Shown here piece by piece: positions 12,672 through 24,143 of a stretch of 36,948 nt of DNA; positions within the stretch are counted from its first letter, which is position 1, and each line of letters starts with the position of its first letter. Below the pieces are notes generated by a model. It ran no database searches, was not told the origin of the DNA, and worked only from the letters and a program-made list of their open reading frames with translations. The DNA lies in assembly GCA_003164255.1 (NCBI GenBank), contig PLST01000461.1, forward strand, positions 4,139 to 41,086, written 5' to 3'. The position numbers and the translations under genes are program-made. The stretch is from Acidobacteriaceae bacterium (GTDB lineage Bacteria; Acidobacteriota; Terriglobia; Terriglobales; Acidobacteriaceae).

Positions 12672-13314
12672 TTGCACTACTCGAAGCTGATGGGTCGTGC
12701 AGGGTCCGTCGGACTTCGATGTGAAGCACCGCGTGGTCGCCTCAGTGATTTACCACCTGCCCGTCGGGCCCGGCCTCCTCTTCAGTCCTTCGTCGAAAGC
12801 TCTGGATGCGGTGATCGGAGGCTGGGAACTCAGCGCCGTCGCCACCCTCCCGACCGGCGTACCCTACAACGAGAGATACAACGACGACAATGCCAGCACC
12901 AATACCATTGTTGGCGGCACCCAACCGACGAGGCCGAATTACGTTCCTGGCCAACCGTTCGTTCTCGCCAACCGCACGGCCGGATCCAACGGACAATGGG
13001 TGAATCCTGCTGCCTGGCAGGAGCCGGCTCCGGGCTTCCTCGGAACCTCGGCGCGCAACATGCTCTACGGTCCTGGCTACCAACGGTTCGATATGTCTCT
13101 CGACAAGAACTTCAACATGACCTACAACGAGCACCACCAGTTGCAAATCCGATTTGACGCGTTCAACGCATTCAACCACACCAATTTCGGCAACCCGAAC
13201 ACCTTTCTGGACGGCACATCGACACCCGGCAGAATCACGGGTTCCGATGCGCCTTCAGGAAGCGCCAATGGAGGTTCGCGCGAACTGCAGCTAGCCGCCA
13301 GGTACTCGTTCTAG
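12672..13314 (+). pseudogene. C-terminal remnant of a TonB-dependent receptor
   Basis: Reading from GTG 12697 begins mid-barrel (QGPSDFDVKHRVVASVIYHLPVG...) and ends with ...GGSRELQLAARYSF. About 205 aa versus about 1,200 for the intact receptor here; in-frame stop TGA at 12688-12690; the adjacent frame upstream reads LHYSKLM, resembling the 'YTYSK' barrel motif. Confidence 0.8.
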
Positions 13315-13350
13315 CGTCGGATACCTCAAGCTTGTTCAACCGTTATGGGC

Positions 13351-13380
13351 ACCCCAGGTCTCAAACCAGAGACCTGGGGT
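13351..13380. terminator. Strong hairpin (12-bp perfect stem), terminator- or REP-like
   Basis: ACCCCAGGTCTC-AAACCA-GAGACCTGGGGT, 36 bp after the receptor remnant stop; no T-tract, so either a terminator without U-run or a dispersed palindromic repeat. Confidence 0.55.
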
Positions 13381-13666
13381 TCACTGGGTGAGCCCCTTGC
13401 GTGAGACGGTTTGCTGAAGACCCAGTTGGCGTTGAGTTCCGAGACGACAACTGGATTTTCCCGTCAGGTCGGGTAGATGGATTTGCCATTACCCGTCATT
13501 TGCGAATATTGTTCGAGTGGCTGAAATTTCCTGCAAAATCGACGACTTTGGGCTTAAATCCACATGCCCCAATGCCGTGGGGGCAAGTTCCCCTCTGGGC
13601 ACAAGAAGTTGGTCCATTACGAATGTTTGGTCTGTTCAAGTTCGACAACGAAAGGTGATCTGAAAA

Positions 13667-14938
13667 ATGGCGCAAACTACTCGACGGTCCATGTTGAAAG
13701 GAGCAACCCTTTCGGCATTGGGAACACTCTCGACATTCTCGCTCCCCGCTTTGGCGGGAGCCGTGGAAACCAACAGCTCACCGTTTCAGCGGCCGAAGCT
13801 CAAGATCACCGAGGTGCGCACCGCGCAGGTCATCGTTCATGGACCGCAGACGCACATCAGGATTTACACGGATCAAGGCATCTACGGGCAGGGAGAAACC
13901 ACGGACGCCGCTATCGGAACCGCGTCGCTGATCCATAGTTGGCGGCGCGCGCTCATCGGGCGAGATCCGCTCAATGTCGAAGCGATATGGGAGAGGATTC
14001 GCACCCTGGGAATCTTCGCTGGCGCGCAAGGTGGACAGTACATCACAGCCTTGTCTGGCTTGGAAATTGCGTTGTGGGACCTTGCCGGCAAGGCGCTGGA
14101 GTTGCCCGTGTACCAGCTTATGGGCGGCAAGTTCCGCGATAAAGTCCGCATCTATTGCGACTCGGATATGGATGTTCCCATTGGGGAAGAGTCGGACCGA
14201 AAGCTTCCGTGGATCAAGGCGCAAGGCTTTACGGCGATGAAGATCGACCTCGACGATGCAATGGATCCGGCGCGCTTCGATTCCGTGAATTGGACTGCGA
14301 GCAATGGCGAGATCGATCGCATGGTGAAGTGGGTAGCGCACGTGCGGGAGTCGATTCCAGCCAACATGGACCTGGCCTGCGATATGCATGGCCGCTACGA
14401 TGCTCCGACCGGAAAGAAAGTCGCGAAGGCGCTGGAGCCGTTCAGGCTGATGTGGCTGGAAGAGCCTGTTCCCCCCGAAGACATCGACGCGATGGCGGAC
14501 ATCCGGCATTCGACCTCGACCCCCATCGCCTGCGGCGAGAACCTCTACATGCGCTGGGGATACAGGGAATTGTTTGAGAAGCAGGCAGTGGACATCATTC
14601 AGCCCGACTTCCAGAAGGTGGGAGGGCTTGGCGAAGCCCAGAAGGTCGCCAACATGGCGCAAGCCTACTACATTCCAGTCGCGCCGCACTGCGTGGTTTC
14701 ACCGATTGGGGTGATGGCTACCGCTCACGCATGCACCACATACCCGAACTTTCTGGCATGCGAGTGGCACTGGATCAACCACCTCGATACCTGGAAGACG
14801 TTCGTGAAGGAAGGCGAAATCATCATTGATGGTCACGTCACGCCCACGGAGAAGCCCGGCCTTGGCGTGGAGATGGACGAAGATGCCGCGAAGAAGGTTC
14901 AGATTCCGGGAACACCCTGGTTTGAAGCTGAGAAGTAG
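13667..14938 (+). CDS. Enolase-superfamily (mandelate racemase/muconate lactonizing) protein, galactonate-dehydratase-like, with TAT signal
   Basis: 423 aa. TAT-type N-terminus MAQTTRRSMLKGATLSALGTLSTFSLPALAGAVE. MR-family motifs: FTAMKIDLDD, DMHGRYD (DxH), LMWLEEPVPPED, IACGENLYMRWGYRE, DIIQPDFQKVGG, APHCVVSPIG. Confidence 0.9.
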   Translation: MAQTTRRSMLKGATLSALGTLSTFSLPALAGAVETNSSPFQRPKLKITEVRTAQVIVHGPQTHIRIYTDQGIYGQGETTDAAIGTASLIHSWRRALIGRDPLNVEAIWERIRTLGIFAGAQGGQYITALSGLEIALWDLAGKALELPVYQLMGGKFRDKVRIYCDSDMDVPIGEESDRKLPWIKAQGFTAMKIDLDDAMDPARFDSVNWTASNGEIDRMVKWVAHVRESIPANMDLACDMHGRYDAPTGKKVAKALEPFRLMWLEEPVPPEDIDAMADIRHSTSTPIACGENLYMRWGYRELFEKQAVDIIQPDFQKVGGLGEAQKVANMAQAYYIPVAPHCVVSPIGVMATAHACTTYPNFLACEWHWINHLDTWKTFVKEGEIIIDGHVTPTEKPGLGVEMDEDAAKKVQIPGTPWFEAEK

Positions 14939-14974
14939 TTCTTTGAAGATCACCGGTACTTGGGAGAAGAGACG

Positions 14975-15934
14975 ATGCGGAAGATGATTGCAGGTGTGCT
15001 GGCTGGGATGTCCTTGCTGGCGTTCACTCCGCGCCTGACGGCGCAGCAGGAGTTTTTCACGCGGGACGATGTGATCAAATACACTCCTGACTGGCAGGGG
15101 GAAAGGTTTCCGGACGGTCGGCCCAAGGTGCCCGACGACATCCTGGATCGCATGAAGAATGTGACTCTTGAAGAAGCCTGGGCGACCCTACGCAACGCGG
15201 GTTTTGTGCACCAGTATGAAGATGGCTGGTACTCGATCCATCCTGATCAGATCCTGGTGGGCAGGGCGCTGACGGCGGTATGGATGCCGGGCAGGCCCGA
15301 TATTCAAAAGGTGATTGAAGACCAAGGGAAGAAGGACAATCGCCAGGGGGCTACCAACGCGTGGCCTGTGGACATGTTGCAGCCGCGCGATGTGTATGTA
15401 GCCGACCACTTCGGACTCAAAACGGATGGTCCATCGATTGGCGACAACGTAGGCAACGCCATCTATGCGCGATCGGGGAACGGCATCGTTTACGATGGCG
15501 CGGTTCGCGATATCAATGGTCTGAACGAACTGCCGAATTTTACTTCCTTTGTTCGGTTCTACGACCCTTCGCATCATTTTGGAAGTCTCGCCAGCGGAAG
15601 ACTGCTCAACTCGACCATGGTGAGCATCAACGGGCCGACCCGGATCGGACATGCGACGGTGATGCCTGGAGATGTAATTCTGGGACGGAACGGTGGTGTG
15701 CTGTTCATACCGCCGCAGCTAGCGGAGCGGGTTGTCAAAGAGTCGGAAAGCACTCGTCTTGAGGACACGTTCGGACACCAGCGCCTGAGGGAGAAGAAGT
15801 ACACCGCTGGACAGATCGATGCCAAGTGGTCACCGGAAATCGAACAGGACTACCACCAGTGGCTCAAAGAGAATGAGAATCATCTGACCGTACCCAAGGC
15901 CCAGATTGAAGAGATTTTGAAAGAGGCTAAGTAG
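14975..15934 (+). CDS. RraA / HMG-aldolase-fold family protein with Sec-type signal (paralog A)
   Basis: ORF 14960..15934; likely start ATG 14975 (MRKMIAGVLAGMSLLAFTPRLTAQQ). Family signature DVYVADHFG...IGDNVGNAIYARSGNGIVYDGAVRD; D-x20-R-D spacing counted as exactly 20. Confidence 0.85.
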   Translation: MRKMIAGVLAGMSLLAFTPRLTAQQEFFTRDDVIKYTPDWQGERFPDGRPKVPDDILDRMKNVTLEEAWATLRNAGFVHQYEDGWYSIHPDQILVGRALTAVWMPGRPDIQKVIEDQGKKDNRQGATNAWPVDMLQPRDVYVADHFGLKTDGPSIGDNVGNAIYARSGNGIVYDGAVRDINGLNELPNFTSFVRFYDPSHHFGSLASGRLLNSTMVSINGPTRIGHATVMPGDVILGRNGGVLFIPPQLAERVVKESESTRLEDTFGHQRLREKKYTAGQIDAKWSPEIEQDYHQWLKENENHLTVPKAQIEEILKEAK

Positions 15935-16170
15935 TCGGATCAGGGCCTGGAGGGATCGCCGATGAGGGCGAGTGTCCGGGTCAATGATTGGCAAACGCAC
16001 GCTGTTCATCTGACTATCGAGGCTTTTTTTGAATTTCGGAAACGGGCAACATGTGCAATTGGCAACTTGCGGCGACGGGCCGATCCAATTGAAGAGGGAG
16101 ATCCCACGGCTCTGCCGGAGGATCCTTACTCAATACAACAAGAACGTAGAGCTGAAAGGAAAAAGAGGAA

Positions 16171-17547
16171 ATGTCAGATAAAAGCAGTCTCAACATGAAT
16201 CGCCGTAGTGTTCTCAAGTCTTCGCTGGCCGTACTGGCAGGTGGGGCTCTCAGCCAAGCTGCTGTAGCTGACGCTGCGGAGTCTTCGATCAAGAATGTCA
16301 ATCTGAACTCGAGTCCATCAACTTTAAAGATCACCGACATGCGCTATGCGGTGGTGGTCAAGCCGGGCCCGAGTCCCTGCGTTCTGATCCGCATTGACAC
16401 GAACCAGGGGGTGTATGGCCTGGGCGAAGTGCGGGACATCGCTGGATATCAGTATGCGATGGTGCTCAAGAACCGCATCGTCGGCGAGAATCCGCTGCAG
16501 ATCGACTATCTATTTCAGAAGATTGCCCAGTTTGGAGGGGGAGCGCGGCAGGCGGGCGGCGTTTGCGCCGTGGAGATGGCGCTGTGGGATATTGCCGGCA
16601 AGGTATACAACATCCCAGTCTACCAAATGCTAGGTGGCAAGTGGCGCGATAGCATTCGCATCTATGCCGATACCGAGGAGTCGCCCGAGCCAAGCGAGTG
16701 CGCGGAGCGAGCCAAAGGACGCGTGGCCATGGGGCTCACCTGGCTGAAGATGGATATTGGCATTCGTCTTCTGGAGGGGAAACCCGGGATGGTGATGGAG
16801 CCGGCCGGTCAAAGCAATTGGGAGATGCGCGTTCAGCCACACCCCTTTGTGGCCACCGAGGTTACCGACAAAGGCATCGATCGCCTCTGTGAGTACGTTG
16901 CCGCCGTGCGCGACGCAGTGGGATACGAGATCCCCTTCTCGATCGATCACCTCGGTCACATCGGCGTAAAGTCTGTCATGCGCCTGGCCAAAGCCTACGA
17001 GAAGTTCAACCTCGAGTGGATGGAGGATGTCATTCCCTGGTACTACACCGACCTGCTCAAGGAAATCACAGAGTCGAGCCCGACGCCGATTCTTACGGGA
17101 GAAGACATCTACGAAATCGCCGACTTCGAAAAGCTGTGCAGCAACCACGCGGTCGACAAAATTCATCCCGACCTTGCGACTTCAGGTGGGATCTTGCGGA
17201 CGCACAGAATTGGCGACATGGCGTTTACCTATGGAGTGCCCATGGCGATGCATTTTGCCGGAACGCCGGTGAGCTGCATGGCAAATGTTCACTGCGCAGC
17301 GGCCACGCGCAACTTCCTGGCGCTCGAAAACCATTCGCTCGATGTGCCCTTCTGGCAAGACCTGGTCACGGGCATTGAGAAACCGATCATCAACAAGGGA
17401 TATATCAAGGTGTCGGATACGCCTGGGTTGGGTATCACGCTCAACGACGATGAAGTGAAGCGGCACCTGAAGCCGGGCACAGGATATTTTGAGCCGACTC
17501 CGATGTGGGACGAAGTGCAGTCATTGGACGATGCGCTCTTCAGCTAG
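16171..17547 (+). CDS. Enolase-superfamily protein with TAT signal (paralog B)
   Basis: 458 aa. MNRRSVLKSSLAVLAGGALSQAAVADAAE TAT-type signal (MSDKSSLN upstream, SD-like AAAAAGAGGAA). Motifs VEMALWDIAGKVYNIPVYQMLGGKWRD, LTWLKMDI, FSIDHLGHIG, WMEDVIPWY, LTGEDIYE, HPDLATSGG, AMHFAGTPVS. Confidence 0.88.
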   Translation: MSDKSSLNMNRRSVLKSSLAVLAGGALSQAAVADAAESSIKNVNLNSSPSTLKITDMRYAVVVKPGPSPCVLIRIDTNQGVYGLGEVRDIAGYQYAMVLKNRIVGENPLQIDYLFQKIAQFGGGARQAGGVCAVEMALWDIAGKVYNIPVYQMLGGKWRDSIRIYADTEESPEPSECAERAKGRVAMGLTWLKMDIGIRLLEGKPGMVMEPAGQSNWEMRVQPHPFVATEVTDKGIDRLCEYVAAVRDAVGYEIPFSIDHLGHIGVKSVMRLAKAYEKFNLEWMEDVIPWYYTDLLKEITESSPTPILTGEDIYEIADFEKLCSNHAVDKIHPDLATSGGILRTHRIGDMAFTYGVPMAMHFAGTPVSCMANVHCAAATRNFLALENHSLDVPFWQDLVTGIEKPIINKGYIKVSDTPGLGITLNDDEVKRHLKPGTGYFEPTPMWDEVQSLDDALFS

Positions 17548-17726
17548 AAAAGAAGCTTCGAGTAACCAAGGGGGCGAGGCCAAGGCGATCGCAGCGGAAT
17601 CAATCGCTTTGTTTCGACCCCAGGACCTCAGAAAATCGATCTGAATTGATGGTGAGGCAGTCTGGCCGCTGTTGGGCTGGAAATGGGAATGTCTGCAGCG
17701 GGCCAGTGGGGAAGGAGAAGAGATTC

Positions 17727-18680
17727 ATGAAGAAGACAGTCTCGGCAATTTTGTTGGCATGCGCGGTGTTGATGGCGGCTCCTGCGCGCAGCCAGGTGAC
17801 CATGACGCGGGATCAAATACTCTTTTACACATCGGACTGGAAAGGCGAACGCTTCCCGGATGGCCGGCCGAAATTGCCGGATGCGCTGCTAAAACGCGCC
17901 GTGGATATGACGATTGAAGACATTTGGGAGTTCCTGCGTGGCCAGGGTTACAACAATCAATTTGATTCGGGCTGGCAGGCTCTTCATATGGATAAGCCAT
18001 TTGCCGGCCGGGCGCTTACAGCCCAATACATGCCAACCCGTCCCGATATGCTGAAAGCGATTGCCGCGGAAGGCAAAGCAGAAGGACGAATACTGGGCGC
18101 AGGTTCCGGGACCAACAGCTGGCCCATCAGCGAGCTGCAAATCGGCGACGTGTATGTTGCGGACGGCTTCGGAAAGGTCGTCGACGGTACGCTGATTGGC
18201 TCCAACCTGGGCAACGCCGTTGCAGCGCGCACTCATACAGGATTCGTATTTGACGCCGGGATCCGCGATCAGGAAGAGAATCGGGAGATTCCGGATTTCA
18301 ACGGATTCTATCGAGGGTACGATCCCTCTGCCTGGGCCAATATGGGGTTGACCTCGATCAACGCCCCGATTCGCATCGGACGCGCGGTGGTGTTGCCGGG
18401 AGACCTGGTTCTGTGCAAGCCGGAAGGAGTCATTTTTGTTCCGGCAATTCTTGCCGAACAGGCAATCAGCTATGCGGAATTCACCTCTTTGAAAGACGAC
18501 TTCAATTTTGAGCTCAACCGCGAAGGCAAGAACGGAGCTCAATTTGAAGGAGGCTGGACGGCTGAAAAGTATGACGCATTCGCCAAGTGGATCGACGCTC
18601 ATCCTGAGAAGCTGAAGATGGAGCGCAGCGAGTTTGACGCCTTATTGGCGAAGGCAAGATTACCGCGCTCGGCCCACTAG
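17727..18680 (+). CDS. RraA / HMG-aldolase-fold family protein with Sec-type signal (paralog B)
   Basis: ORF 17505..18680; real start probably ATG 17727 (MKKTVSAILLACAVLMAAPARSQ) after GGAGAAGAGA. Shares 'W.GERFPDGRPK.PD' and 'GRALTA..MP.RPD' with paralog A; GFVFDAGIRD signature. Confidence 0.85.
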   Translation: MKKTVSAILLACAVLMAAPARSQVTMTRDQILFYTSDWKGERFPDGRPKLPDALLKRAVDMTIEDIWEFLRGQGYNNQFDSGWQALHMDKPFAGRALTAQYMPTRPDMLKAIAAEGKAEGRILGAGSGTNSWPISELQIGDVYVADGFGKVVDGTLIGSNLGNAVAARTHTGFVFDAGIRDQEENREIPDFNGFYRGYDPSAWANMGLTSINAPIRIGRAVVLPGDLVLCKPEGVIFVPAILAEQAISYAEFTSLKDDFNFELNREGKNGAQFEGGWTAEKYDAFAKWIDAHPEKLKMERSEFDALLAKARLPRSAH

Positions 18681-18721
18681 ACGGCAGCCCCTCGGTTCAG
18701 GCAAAGAGAATTTGAGAAAAG

Positions 18722-20119
18722 ATGTCCATAAGCCAGCTGAAGAAACCCGGTCGCGGTGTGCCCAAGCGCTACCTGCTTGTGTCGTGGGTATTGGTATTGA
18801 GCGCCGTTGCCTTCATGGATCGCACCAATATTTCGATTGCCGGTGTATCGATCTGCCGGGAATTCGGAATAGATAACGCACATCTCGGCTGGATTTTCAG
18901 CGCATTCCTGATCGGCTACGCCTCGTTCCAGATTCCCGGCGGAGTCCTTGCACGCCGCCTTGGTCCGCGCCGTGTAATCGCGATCGGCGTGATATGGTCG
19001 GGGCTCTTTACCGCTCTGACCGCGTCCATTCCGCGGGGCATCCGCGGGGCGCTTTTCCTGCTGGTTCTTATCCGGTTCTCCCTGGCGGCAGGCGAGGCCA
19101 TCACGTATCCGGCGGCAAACCAATTTGTCGAGAGGTGGTTTCCGATTGAAGAGCGAGGCAAGGCCAACGGCATCATCTTTGGCGGCGTCGGGCTCGGATC
19201 GGGACTTACGCCGCCAATCATGACGGCCATCATGTTGCACTACGGGTGGCGCGCTGCATTTTGGTTCAGCGCAGTTGTGGTTTTGCTGGCGGGAACCATA
19301 TGGTACCTGGTAGCACGCGATACGCCGGAAGAGCATCCCTGGGTGCGCGCTGGGGAACTCGAAGTCATCGTCAAGGGCCGCGGCGACGCCGGGAGGCAAG
19401 CGGACAAACTCGCCGTGGCTGCAGCTTCAGGAGCAGAGGGGAAGCGGAGGGTACCGTGGAGCAGAATACTTCGAAGCAAAGAGATTCTCGCCCTGACGGG
19501 AAGCTATTTTACGTTCGGTTACGTGGCCTGGATTTTCTTTAGCTGGTTTTATATCTATCTGGTTCAAGTGCGCGGCCTGAATCTGAAGACCAGCGCGGTC
19601 TACTCCATGTTTCCCTTTATCGCCATGACGCTTGGCTCTCTTACCGGCGGAGTGGCCAGCGACTGGCTCTCGCGCCACATCAGCTTGCGCGCCGGCAGGT
19701 GCTTTCTGCCTGCCTTCGCCTTGGCCTGCACGGCGCTTCTGCTTTCCGTCGGGTCGAGAGCGCACGATGCTCAGACTGCCACTCTTGTTCTCGCGTGTGG
19801 AGCAGGGGCCTTGTATCTGTCGCAGAGCAGCTTCTGGTCGGTCACCGCCGATTTCGCGGGGCAATACTCCGGGGTTGTGTCCGGGACTATGAATACCGGC
19901 TGCCAGTTGGGTGGCGCCGTAACTGCATCGCTCACGCCCATGATTGCCGCTCACTTTGGTTGGGGGGCATCTTTTCTGACTGCGACCGTGCTTGCTGCTC
20001 TGGGCGCAATTGGTTGGCTCATCGTCAATCCCTCGGCGCGGCTCGATGGCCTGGGGCATTCGGCGCCGCGACTGACCCATGTTACCGAACCAATGATCTC
20101 CGCAGGAGCGGACTTATGA
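18722..20119 (+). CDS. MFS transporter, ACS (anion:cation symporter) / sugar-acid type
   Basis: 465 aa, multiple hydrophobic helices; 'VAFMDRTNISIAGVSICREFGIDNAHLGWIFSAFLIGYASFQIPGGVLARRLGPRRVI' and 'RWFPIEERGKANGIIFGGVGLGSGLTPPI' are ACS/hexuronate-galactonate transporter-like. Confidence 0.88.
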   Translation: MSISQLKKPGRGVPKRYLLVSWVLVLSAVAFMDRTNISIAGVSICREFGIDNAHLGWIFSAFLIGYASFQIPGGVLARRLGPRRVIAIGVIWSGLFTALTASIPRGIRGALFLLVLIRFSLAAGEAITYPAANQFVERWFPIEERGKANGIIFGGVGLGSGLTPPIMTAIMLHYGWRAAFWFSAVVVLLAGTIWYLVARDTPEEHPWVRAGELEVIVKGRGDAGRQADKLAVAAASGAEGKRRVPWSRILRSKEILALTGSYFTFGYVAWIFFSWFYIYLVQVRGLNLKTSAVYSMFPFIAMTLGSLTGGVASDWLSRHISLRAGRCFLPAFALACTALLLSVGSRAHDAQTATLVLACGAGALYLSQSSFWSVTADFAGQYSGVVSGTMNTGCQLGGAVTASLTPMIAAHFGWGASFLTATVLAALGAIGWLIVNPSARLDGLGHSAPRLTHVTEPMISAGADL

Positions 20120-23100
20120 AAGTCGTATTACTGATTGTGATCTCGATTTCCTGCGTGGTGAGTGGCTATGGGAGTTCGGTGTATCCCACACGTCTCGACG
20201 ACCCCGCCGCCATTTATCTAACCCCCGAGGACTTTCACGTTCAAGGCGACGGGAAGGCGGATGACAGCTTGGCCGTCCAAGCTGCCATCAACAAGCTCCA
20301 GGAGACCCGGGGCGAGGGAATTGTCTTTATTCCCGAGGGCCGCTACCGGATTACGAGGACCATTTATCTCTGGCCCGGCATTCGCATGATCGGGTACGGC
20401 AGCCATCGCCCTGTCTTTGTTCTTGGCGAAAACACGCCGGGTTATCAGGATGGCATCGCCTACATGTTCTTCTTCGCAGGTGCGCGTCCTAACTCCGGAA
20501 CCGTTATTCAGGGGGGCGTTCCACTGCTGGGCTTCCACATGCCGCCAACGCCTCCAGGAGTTGTTCCGCCGGACCATGCAGTGCCCGACGCCAATCCCGG
20601 CACCTTCTATTCTGCGATGAGCAACATCGATTTTGAAATTGGGCCTGGCAATGGGGGCGCTGTGGCGATCCGCTTCCATGCGGCTCAGCACACCTATCTC
20701 AGCCACATCGACTTCAATATTGGCTCTGGATTTGCCGGCATTCACGAGGTTGGCAACGAGGCCGAGGATCTTCATTTTCACGGCGGCAAGTTTGGCATAA
20801 TGGCCCGTAAACCTTCGCCGAACTGGCAGTTCACTCTCATCGATTCCACCTTTGACGGTCAGCGCGAAGCCGCCATCCGCGAGAACGAAGCGGCACTCAC
20901 TCTGATACACGACGAGTTCAAAGATGTACCTACAGCTGTCTCCATCGATCCGCACTATTCCGATCAGCTTTGGATATCGGACGCGCGCTTCGAGAACATT
21001 TCCGGCCCCGCCGTTCTCATCAGCAACGAGAACAGCCGCATGACCGAAGTGAATTTCGAAAACATTGTCTGCAGTCATACTCCGGTCTTTGCAAAATTCC
21101 GCGAGAGCGGACGGGAGTTTCGCCAAGCCGCAGAAGCTTATCAGGTGAGTGTCTTTTCCCACGGTCTCAGGCTTGAGTCTCCAGGGGCATTGGCGGCATT
21201 CCATACCAGTTACCAGGCGACGCCGCTTGCGATGCTTCCGCCGGCTGTGCCACCGGCCATTCGACCGCTGCCGGATGCATTACAGTGGGTCAATGTCCAC
21301 ACCCTCGGTGTTCAGGGCGATGGACACAGTGACGACACGGCCGCGCTGCAAAAGGCGATCGACCATCATCGCGTACTCTACTTTCCCAGTGGCCGCTATC
21401 TTCTGCGGGACACTCTTACTCTGCGCCCAGACACCGCCCTGATCGGCCTCCATCCAAGCACGACACAGTTTGACCTGCCCGATGGAACGCCGGCGTTTCA
21501 GGGGCCCGGCACTCCCAAACCGCTCTTGCTTGCTCCTGCCGGCGGCGCCAATGTTCTTGTTGGACTGGGCATCTACACCGGTGGGCTGAACAGCCGGGCC
21601 ACGGGCCTGTTGTGGCACGCGGGCAGGGAATCCCTTGTCGACGATGTTCGCTTTCTGGGCGGCCACGGCACCAATGCGCCGGATGGCTCCCGGATAAATC
21701 CCTATAACAACACGCACACGGCCGATCCCGATTTGCATCGTCCGTGGGACTCGCAATACCCAAGCCTTTGGATCGATGGCGGCGGTGGAACCTTCGCCAA
21801 CATCTGGACTCCCGATACCTTTGCTCAAGCCGGCATCCTGATCTCCAACACCACCGTCCCCGGCTTTGTGTACGAGTTGTCGAGCGAGCACCATATGCGT
21901 GCGGAAATCCAGATAAGGGATGCACACAATTGGCAGATCTACGCCCCTCAGACAGAAGAGGAGAGCGGCGAAAGCGGACATGCCTCATCGCTCGAAATCG
22001 ACCGGTCGAGCAATATCACCATTGCCAACTATCACGGATATCGCGTCACTCACATGGAAGAGCCATTTCCCTACGCGGTGCGCGTGTCGGATTCCAGAAA
22101 TATTCATTTCCGCAATGTGCATGTCGACGCCAACTGTTCCATCGTCATCTGCGATGCCTCGGGCGCATGTCGTCAGTTGGTGCGTTCCAACAAAGTTCCG
22201 TTTGAAGATGCGATCGTAGACCAGACACTGCACGCGGTGGTTCGCGATCGCGAGTTTGCTTACCTAGATCTCTCCGACAATCAGGCAAAACCCGCGTCCC
22301 ACCCCGTTTCCAGCTTCACTGAAATAGGCTCCCAGCCCGAACTTCTGGCCACCGGCTTCTTCAACATCTCCGGAGCCGCCGTCAACTCCGCTGGCGACCC
22401 TTACTTTGTTGACGCCCATTTTCAGCGTATCTACCGGTGGTCGCCCAAGTCGCGGAACGCCGTTGTGGTTCGTGACGCCCCGCTCGATCCCGTCAATCTC
22501 GTCTTCGACAAATCCGACAACCTTGTGGTTCTCTCTTCCGGCGGCAAAGATCTCACAGCCTATGCCTTCCGGCCGGATGACGCGGAACAGCAACTCACTC
22601 TTCTTCAACCCCAGCCCGCCAGTAACCACCCCGGACGGACGGCTGCGCTTCCGGTCGACTATTGGTTCAACGGGGACTTTGCCAATACGTTGTCAGCCAC
22701 ACAGCCGTACACCTACACCACTCTCGAGGGGATGTTCAGGAAGGGGCTCGGAGGCCGCAAAGCTCTCGAATTTGTCTCCCCGGATGGCAGCCTGTTCATT
22801 CCGACTGACCCTGCGCTTGTGCAGGGGGAACCATACTTCGGCACCAAATGGGCGCCCGTTCTCGAGGCCTACGGCCTGGTGAAGGGAAATCCCGGCGAGA
22901 CGTTCTATGCAACAAACGAGGCTGAACAACGGACCTATCGCGGAACACTCAACCCCGACGGCACTCTTTCTAATATAGCCACCTTCGTCGAGCGGGGCGG
23001 AGAGAGCCTTGCTCGGGACGCCGAAGGTAAGGTCTATATCGCCGCCGGACAAGTCTTCGTTTACTCACCTAAGGGCGAGCCACTCGGCACAATAACAACT

Positions 23101-23199
23101 CCAGAGCGCCCACACGATATTCTCTTCGGTGGTCCGGACCATCGGACACTGTATCTGCTCTCGGATCACTCTTTGTATTCTGTCCGCATTCGACCTTAA
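20116..23199 (+). CDS. Secreted double beta-helix (Pectate_lyase_3/GH55-like) protein with C-terminal SMP-30/gluconolactonase-like propeller
   Basis: ATG 20116 overlaps the MFS TGA (ATGA); MKVVLLIVISISCVVSGYG signal. Two beta-helix starts: VQGDGKADDSLAVQAAIN...IFIPEGRYRI-type and VQGDGHSDDTAALQKAID...LYFPSGRYLL. C-terminus 'GESLARDAEGKVYIAAGQVFVYSPKGEPLGTITTPERPHDILFGGPDHRTLYLLSDHSLYSVRI' is SMP-30-like. ORF 19699..23199 over-extends the start. Confidence 0.8.
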   Translation: MKVVLLIVISISCVVSGYGSSVYPTRLDDPAAIYLTPEDFHVQGDGKADDSLAVQAAINKLQETRGEGIVFIPEGRYRITRTIYLWPGIRMIGYGSHRPVFVLGENTPGYQDGIAYMFFFAGARPNSGTVIQGGVPLLGFHMPPTPPGVVPPDHAVPDANPGTFYSAMSNIDFEIGPGNGGAVAIRFHAAQHTYLSHIDFNIGSGFAGIHEVGNEAEDLHFHGGKFGIMARKPSPNWQFTLIDSTFDGQREAAIRENEAALTLIHDEFKDVPTAVSIDPHYSDQLWISDARFENISGPAVLISNENSRMTEVNFENIVCSHTPVFAKFRESGREFRQAAEAYQVSVFSHGLRLESPGALAAFHTSYQATPLAMLPPAVPPAIRPLPDALQWVNVHTLGVQGDGHSDDTAALQKAIDHHRVLYFPSGRYLLRDTLTLRPDTALIGLHPSTTQFDLPDGTPAFQGPGTPKPLLLAPAGGANVLVGLGIYTGGLNSRATGLLWHAGRESLVDDVRFLGGHGTNAPDGSRINPYNNTHTADPDLHRPWDSQYPSLWIDGGGGTFANIWTPDTFAQAGILISNTTVPGFVYELSSEHHMRAEIQIRDAHNWQIYAPQTEEESGESGHASSLEIDRSSNITIANYHGYRVTHMEEPFPYAVRVSDSRNIHFRNVHVDANCSIVICDASGACRQLVRSNKVPFEDAIVDQTLHAVVRDREFAYLDLSDNQAKPASHPVSSFTEIGSQPELLATGFFNISGAAVNSAGDPYFVDAHFQRIYRWSPKSRNAVVVRDAPLDPVNLVFDKSDNLVVLSSGGKDLTAYAFRPDDAEQQLTLLQPQPASNHPGRTAALPVDYWFNGDFANTLSATQPYTYTTLEGMFRKGLGGRKALEFVSPDGSLFIPTDPALVQGEPYFGTKWAPVLEAYGLVKGNPGETFYATNEAEQRTYRGTLNPDGTLSNIATFVERGGESLARDAEGKVYIAAGQVFVYSPKGEPLGTITTPERPHDILFGGPDHRTLYLLSDHSLYSVRIRP

Positions 23200-23639: not shown

Positions 23640-24143
23640 GTGCAAACTGGGAGCAACAGAGTGGAGCGAACGGTCACGCTGATCGGGCTTGGATTGAAGG
23701 AGGATTATCGGATCGGCATGATCGATATCGTAGACATCAACGCAGACCTGTACGCGTTTGCGGGTCCCGGGCATTGGAACGATCCTGACATGCTGCAGAT
23801 CGGCAATGGTGGCATGACGCCGGTGGAATATCGAACCCAGTTCAGTATGTGGGCCATGATGGCTGCGCCTCTGATGGCGGGCAACGATCTTTCGGCTATG
23901 TCGGAAGATACAAAGTCGATCCTGATGAACAAGGAAGTGATAGCTGTTGATCAGGATCCGCTGGGCGAAGCCGGTCGTCGGGTTTGGCAAAATGGGAATC
24001 TCGAAGTATGGTCACGCAATCTGACTGGTGGGTATCGCGCCGTAGTCTTGTTGAACCGGGGAACGGCGGCCGGCATCATCACCGTGCATTGGGCGGACAT
24101 CGGATACCCTGACTCATTGAATGCCCAGGTTCGCGACCTGTAG
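23640..24143 (+). pseudogene. C-terminal remnant of a GH27 alpha-galactosidase-like gene
   Basis: LYAFAGPGHWNDPDMLQIGNGGMTPVEYRTQFSMWAMMAAPLMAGNDLSAMSEDTKSILMNKEVIAVDQDPLGEAG is characteristic GH27 sequence; no N-terminal catalytic half upstream. Confidence 0.85.

Follow-up and report, generated by a model that had tools for sequence, protein, structure and literature searches.

We examined a 36,948-nucleotide stretch of the genome of an Acidobacteriaceae bacterium (GCA_003164255.1, contig PLST01000461.1; the whole stretch is called the window here) in which five plus-strand genes encode, in order, an enolase-superfamily protein (EnoA), an RraA-fold protein (RraA-A), a second protein of each kind (EnoB and RraA-B), and a transporter of the major facilitator superfamily (MFS). 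We consider it fairly probable that together these genes specify a periplasmic route of non-phosphorylative sugar-acid breakdown, with two related branches, that feeds a small-acid importer. The evidence, all of it read from sequence, lies in the gene order, the export signals, the catalytic residues, the conserved pairing, and the transporter neighbors. Each protein comes from a known family. Our literature search, which covered open-access papers but neither subscription literature nor preprints, brought up no description of an exported Eno/RraA pair or cassette.

An earlier note on this DNA, made from the sequence alone, had given the order dehydratase-A, RraA-A, dehydratase-B, RraA-B, MFS. 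This order stands, with the open reading frames (ORFs) on the plus strand as described and the families confirmed by Pfam. The five genes are separated by 36, 236, 179, and 41 bp. RraA-A starts at ATG 14975 (the listed TTG at 14960 is less likely), and RraA-B starts at ATG 17727, with AAGGAG upstream, within an ORF that opens at 17505.

Enzyme families and export signals

Judged by Pfam, EnoA (13667 to 14938), a predicted dehydratase, and EnoB (16171 to 17547) both belong to the mandelate racemase subgroup of the enolase superfamily. EnoA matched MR_MLE_N with 51.4 bits (1.5e-13) and MR_MLE_C with 219.8 bits (4.7e-65), and EnoB matched the N- and C-terminal MR_MLE profiles with 48.5 and 158.5 bits (2.7e-46), respectively (cut-offs, 22 and 29.4). 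A tree of the Eno proteins separated an A group (83 proteins) from a B clade (29 proteins; support, 1.0). The Asp/Glu/Glu metal ligands and the His-Asp pair at the barrel ends were kept in both clades, with a few outliers. EnoA has the catalytic residues of acid-sugar dehydratases (K192-x-D194, D239-x-H241, E265, E291, D314, and H341), and this set is kept in the EnoA clade (83 proteins). The D-x-H histidine of the third strand was present in 83/83 EnoA proteins and in 0/29 EnoB proteins, where Y, F, W, or L stands instead; EnoB, whose third strand reads D-H-[YFWL]-G-H, still has K-x-D, His/Asp, and the metal ligands.

The nearest curated families for the Eno proteins were galactonate, gluconate, and mannonate dehydratases, all with scores below cut-off. 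The best NCBIfam model for EnoA was galactonate dehydratase, and both proteins scored below the cut-off of 311 for the D-galactonate dehydratase equivalog PRK14017 (EnoA, 273.7 bits; EnoB, 198.7 bits). The predicted structure of EnoB (pLDDT 81.2) was nearest in fold to 2qq6 (TMt 0.84) and also resembled acid-sugar dehydratases. A third, more distant Eno group (28 to 30% to EnoA) occurs near Rra or EnoB genes at loci L033, L048, L051/L189, L151, and L198 of the survey described below, and its members are of the twin-arginine translocation (Tat) type wherever the start is readable.

RraA-A (14975 to 15934; 319 amino acids) and RraA-B (17727 to 18680; 317 amino acids) are the only two matches to PF03737 (RraA-like; cut-off, 24.5) in the window genome, with 50.7 bits (3e-13) and, for the longer ORF, 61.5 bits (1.4e-16), respectively. 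The predicted model of RraA-A (pLDDT 84.7) resembled RraAS2 (5x15; TMt 0.89; Foldseek E 2e-12) and, at TMt 0.69, the HMG/CHA aldolase 3noj. RraA-A has the full D-X20-R-D motif (D157-X20-R178-D179), which Mazurkewich et al. reportedly described in 2014 as a marker of class II pyruvate aldolase activity. Among the Rra proteins, R-D was found in 145/145 and D-X20-R-D in 125/145. RraA-B reads S-X20-R-D, with the first Asp lost, a variant common to its orthologs. In HMG/CHA aldolase, the R-D pair consists of the catalytic Arg-123, which stabilizes the pyruvate enolate, and Asp-124, which binds the metal (PMC5065237).

Scores for the HMG/CHA aldolase equivalogs NF006731 (cut-off, 179) and TIGR02798 (cut-off, 304.5) were far below cut-off for both RraA-A (43.5 and 41.8 bits) and RraA-B (47.4 and 49.7 bits). 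Against the RraA equivalog, the regulator of ribonuclease E, RraA-B scored 20.5 bits (cut-off, 136), and RraA-A was not among the matches listed. A role as ribonuclease E regulator is ruled out by the export signals together with scores far under this cut-off.

All four proteins begin with a predicted export signal. The Tat-type signals of EnoA (MAQTTRRSMLKGATLSALGTLSTFSLPALAGA; 13667 to 13762, plus strand) and EnoB (MSDKSSLNMNRRSVLKSSLAVLAGGALSQAAVADA; 16171 to 16275, plus strand) carry TTRRSMLKG and MNRRSVLKS, respectively, followed by a hydrophobic stretch, and the Sec-type signals of RraA-A (MRKMIAGVLAGMSLLAFTPRLTAQ; 14975 to 15046, plus strand) and RraA-B (MKKTVSAILLACAVLMAAPARSQ; 17727 to 17795, plus strand) end in TAQ/RSQ. 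These signals, already noticed in the earlier note, can be read from the sequence and recur in relatives by a rule-based survey, EnoA relatives having RRxLK signals. EnoB matched Pfam TAT_signal at 3.8e-4 (20.7 bits, just under the cut-off of 22.7). The hand-made rule (charged start, uncharged hydrophobic stretch, and small-residue cleavage site) was positive for 106/112 Rra, 69/74 EnoA, and 26/26 SusD proteins and for 0/41 FGGY, ALDH, FAH, AraC, and IlvD neighbors. EnoB proteins were mostly missed by the rule, yet they have RRxFL-type motifs, and both Arg residues of the pair were invariant in 17/17 aligned proteins. Export tagging of Eno and Rra proteins across phyla is supported by these predictions.

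UxuA-like proteins with a Tat-type export signal and a TIM barrel of the xylose-isomerase type were found in or near cassettes at L033 (G345), L117, L153, L173, and L198 and may represent an alternative exported dehydratase. The window genome itself has a second sugar-acid locus (L186; G000:C202) with a Tat-type exported UxuA-like protein, an MFS transporter of the anion:cation symporter (ACS) type, an SGL lactonase, an HpcH/HpaI aldolase, a reductase of the 3-hydroxyisobutyrate-dehydrogenase family, and a galactarate/altronate dehydratase.

Conserved pairing and transporter neighbors

We scanned a single genome from each species, using an alignment built from Rra proteins and no Eno proteins, and obtained 80 loci, mostly from Bacteroidota, with others from Acidobacteriota and Alphaproteobacteria. 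An Eno gene lay within 700 bp of the Rra gene at 71/80 loci (same strand at 66), the median gap between same-strand Rra-Eno neighbors was 15 bp, and 23 loci had both EnoA- and EnoB-type neighbors. Because the loci were picked by Rra sequence alone, the pairing goes beyond chance. After merging of loci with Rra proteins 85% identical, an Eno neighbor was kept in 37/39 Bacteroidota clusters and in 6/13 of the remainder, the latter an undercount due to the filtering out of truncated Eno genes. Eno came before Rra in Acidobacteriota and after it in Bacteroidota; thus, closeness is conserved though order is not. The Eno-Rra cassette, with predicted export signals on both proteins and small-acid importers alongside, is present in bacteria from soil and water that belong to several phyla.

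The two pairs had been described in the earlier note as duplicated, which our trees contradict. A-clade Rra proteins stood beside EnoA in 68/68 cases, and other Rra proteins stood beside EnoB in 21/23. When the Rra tree was first cut at a clade of 118 leaves (support, 0.87), the types stayed mixed (Fisher p = 0.02); the A clade used here (88 leaves; support, 1.0), chosen after that first cut, gave a clean split. It is important to note that the loci are phylogenetically non-independent and the cut was picked post hoc, so the Fisher p is descriptive only. By these phylogenies, EnoA and EnoB form two ancient, distinct clades whose active sites differ, and each is matched by an Rra clade of its own. 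This separation rules out a recent tandem duplication.

The search for conservation across Acidobacteriota that the earlier note proposed gave a divided answer, in that Eno-Rra adjacency recurs in several phyla but is patchy within this one. An RraA-B relative was present in 29/396 genomes of the phylum sample, and EnoA was found at E <1e-80 in 2/59 relatives, one of them a fragment. At L033, RraA-B stands with an MFS transporter, a Tat-type UxuA-like protein, and a third-type Eno. In a locus from the window's genus (L203; G410:C3), RraA-A is intact (82%) and only the 3' third of EnoA remains, and thus the pair is decaying there.

The proposed link to small-acid transport is supported by genes for small organic-anion transporters of several families neighboring the cassette. 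The window MFS protein (18722 to 20119; Pfam MFS_1, 4.9e-58) is of the ACS type, and its nearest NCBIfam subfamily is the D-galactonate transporter (TIGR00893; 215.2 bits, below the cut-off of 395). ACS-MFS genes were also found at L033, L102, L106, and L202. Among dereplicated Bacteroidota loci examined over 12 kb, SBF genes were present in 22/35 and SusC/SusD in 22/35, and SBF directly adjoined the cassette in 20/22. The chance expectation is ∼1% per locus (17 kb), since there are 3 to 4 SBF genes per genome (six such genomes). The SBF (BASS) family has pyruvate and further small 2-keto and 2-hydroxy acids among its cargo. The SBF protein was nearest to PanS and the pantoate-binding ASBT (ASBT-NM), and plant BASS relatives transport pyruvate, glycolate, and 2-keto acids (PMC10645422). 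LctP-type lactate permeases were found near EnoB at two Acidobacteriota loci (L190 and L198), and a GntP gluconate permease was found at four Bacteroidota loci. The window MFS is one among several alternative transporters.

TonB receptors lay upstream of the Eno/Rra genes at L040, L045, L194, and L202. The glycosidase context included GH127, recurrent arabinofuranosidases, GH43, and GH67, and the aldonate context included L-arabinonate-dehydratase-like IlvD, gluconokinase-like FGGY, gluconolactonase-like SGL, and PQQ dehydrogenases. A small DUF4440 protein adjoined the cassette in four Bacteroidota loci (L138, L178, L179, and L180).

Proposed pathway and alternatives

We infer which reactions take place and in what order, on which substrate, and which way transport runs, as follows. 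A TonB receptor (SusC/SusD in Bacteroidota) would bring glycan- or sugar-derived acids across the outer membrane into the periplasm, where the Tat-exported, metal-dependent EnoA would convert an aldonate to a 2-keto-3-deoxy acid and water and EnoB would perform the same dehydration on another substrate or stereoisomer. As a class II aldolase, the Sec-exported RraA-fold partner would then split the 2-keto-3-deoxy acid into pyruvate and an aldehyde. Pyruvate or the keto-acid would finally be carried over the inner membrane by a transporter for small acids, which is ACS-MFS in the window and SBF, LctP, or GntP elsewhere. The extracytoplasmic sugar-acid pathway suggested in the earlier note thus draws support from the signals, the adjacency, the EnoA residues, the RraA-A motif, and the transporter neighbors; the duplication proposed there does not. 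Our first guess for the substrate is acids of the L-arabinonate/D-galactonate type, because L-arabinonate and D-galactonate have the same C2-C4 configuration, galactonate dehydratase is the family closest to EnoA, and arabinofuranosidases are repeatedly found among the neighbors. Gluconate would also fit, given the GntP and gluconokinase-like neighbors.

A fuller version of this route can be put forward only tentatively. It would comprise an outer-membrane receptor, an exported dehydratase, an exported class II aldolase, and an inner-membrane pyruvate/keto-acid symporter and would amount to complete periplasmic catabolism of sugar acids to pyruvate in Bacteroidota and Acidobacteriota by two co-inherited enzyme pairs. 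Non-phosphorylative sugar-acid breakdown is generally viewed as cytosolic. If the proposal is true, C-C bonds of sugar acids are broken on the outer side of the inner membrane, and the cell takes up small acids, pyruvate or keto-acids made in the periplasm, and not sugars. Many Bacteroidota and Acidobacteriota proteins whose annotation goes no further than "RraA family protein" or "mandelate racemase" would also gain candidate reactions. With the SBF, LctP, and SusC/D neighbors, the proposal lends itself to direct tests in cultured species.

Several observations weigh against the periplasmic pathway. The hand-made export rule gives false positives (cytosolic-type UxuA, 4/4; SDR, 2/5). In RraA-B, the class II pyruvate aldolase motif is missing its first Asp, and EnoB may be no dehydratase because its third-strand His is lost. 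FlDet, of the RraA family, catalyzes dehydration/decarboxylation of 2-keto-3-deoxy-D-glucarate and no aldol cleavage (PMC8563752), and by analogy the second step assigned to RraA is uncertain. RraA-B/Eno pairing is looser in the window's own family, where 7/8 RraA-B loci were without an Eno gene within ∼9 kb. Moreover, the TonB gene upstream of EnoA in the window is a fragment, and the window genome (632 contigs; 5.1 Mb) is 67.6% complete, with missing steps possible.

The two pairs might instead act in series, with EnoB as an epimerase or another step that prepares the substrate of EnoA and RraA-A and with RraA-B having a different function. EnoB has K-x-D and His/Asp and not the D-x-H histidine, the RraA-B clade is without the first Asp, and both pairs stand in one run at 23 loci, all of which this arrangement would accommodate. 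We nevertheless think it unlikely, as each Eno has its own Rra clade and many loci have the A pair only, a pattern that parallel branches fit better.

Somewhat less probable still is that Eno makes the 2-keto-3-deoxy acid and that RraA, as a periplasmic dehydratase/decarboxylase, turns it into alpha-ketoglutaric semialdehyde (KGSA), or decarboxylates a beta-keto acid, with the product imported and oxidized in the cytosol to 2-oxoglutarate. FlDet does such chemistry within the RraA family (PMC8563752), oxaloacetate decarboxylation is a further activity of class II pyruvate aldolases (PMC5065237), and FAH and ALDH genes adjoin the cassette at L125, L137, and L158. However, FAH would be redundant if RraA already produced the semialdehyde, and RraA-A retains the aldolase motif. 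FlDet, moreover, is a signal-less protein of 237 residues that accepted a single keto-acid, a hexarate, among those tested.

We find it improbable that the substrates are other than free sugar acids, such as aldonic or uronic acids linked to oligosaccharides or keto-acids derived from aromatic compounds, and that export serves polymer processing. Upstream SusC/SusD or TonB receptors usually import oligomers, and the aromatic-pathway HMG/CHA aldolase has the RraA fold, but we saw no aromatic-pathway genes, the neighbors are sugar-acid genes, and the families closest to the Eno proteins are dehydratases of galactonate, gluconate, and mannonate. Mispredicted N-terminal stretches on an ordinary cytosolic pathway, conceivable with a rule-based prediction and an EnoB just short of the Pfam TAT cut-off, are very improbable given that the RR motifs and Sec-type signals are seen again in other phyla, that FGGY, ALDH, FAH, AraC, and IlvD neighbors score zero by the same rule, and that two cytosolic-type Eno homologs in the window genome (L184 and L185) begin directly at the domain.

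Surroundings of the run and nearest known systems

The gene after MFS (20116 to 23199, plus strand) encodes an exported protein of the pectate-lyase fold (RHGA/epimerase-like; PF12708, 1.3e-30) with a C-terminal SGL-like match (PF08450, 3.8e-12). The transcription unit probably extends past MFS to 23199, because the MFS stop and the start of this gene overlap by 4 bp at 20116. A 36% relative of the protein lies 3' of EnoA-RraA in L202. Upstream of EnoA are GH31, AKR, and GH29 genes and the TonB-dependent receptor fragment (12697 to 13314, plus strand), a 3' piece covering 658-838 of the 838 positions of the OMP_b-brl_4 profile. The fragment lies 87 bp past the GH29 stop and 352 bp before EnoA and is either a remnant or a misassembly. 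A plasmid origin was dropped, as the region around it had no match in the plasmid collection. The intergenic stretch between the fragment and EnoA contains a strong GC-rich inverted repeat at 13350-13382 (CCCCAGGTCTC...GAGACCTGGGG), and downstream, at 23640-24143, a GH27 alpha-galactosidase is represented by its 3' part only (213-284 of the 284 positions of the Melibiase profile, with the C-terminal domain).

Among known proteins, the RraA regulator of ribonuclease E is alike in fold alone, as the Rra proteins here have export signals, are 319 and 317 amino acids long, and carry R-D. The closest structure to EnoB, 2qq6, has a title that assigns no function. D-Galactonate, D-gluconate, and D-mannonate dehydratases are the best curated models for EnoA and EnoB and share D-x-H and the His/Asp pair with EnoA; they differ in that the Eno proteins score below their cut-offs and have a Tat signal and in that EnoB is without the D-x-H histidine. 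HMG/CHA aldolase (Pseudomonas putida F1; 3noj; PMC5065237) shares the fold, R-D with both Rra proteins, and D-X20-R-D with RraA-A, but it is an aromatic-pathway enzyme, the cassette Rra proteins have N- and C-terminal extensions and a signal, and RraA-B is without the Asp. FlDet (PMC8563752), compared by its published description, resembles the Rra proteins in family and in its 2-keto-3-deoxy sugar acid substrate and differs in its length of 237 residues, its signal-less Edman N terminus, and its position beside a KGSA dehydrogenase and an alginate lyase. The nearest published system is the non-phosphorylative sugar-acid catabolism of SAR202, which has many enolase-superfamily enzymes (PMC10444878). 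Its pathways likewise follow an enolase-superfamily dehydratase with an aldolase on sugar-acid substrates, but there the dehydratase is COG4948, the aldolases are COG3836 and COG0329, and the paper is without RraA. The cassette, in contrast, has export signals on both the dehydratase and the RraA-fold protein and lies beside TonB/SusCD and small-acid transporters.

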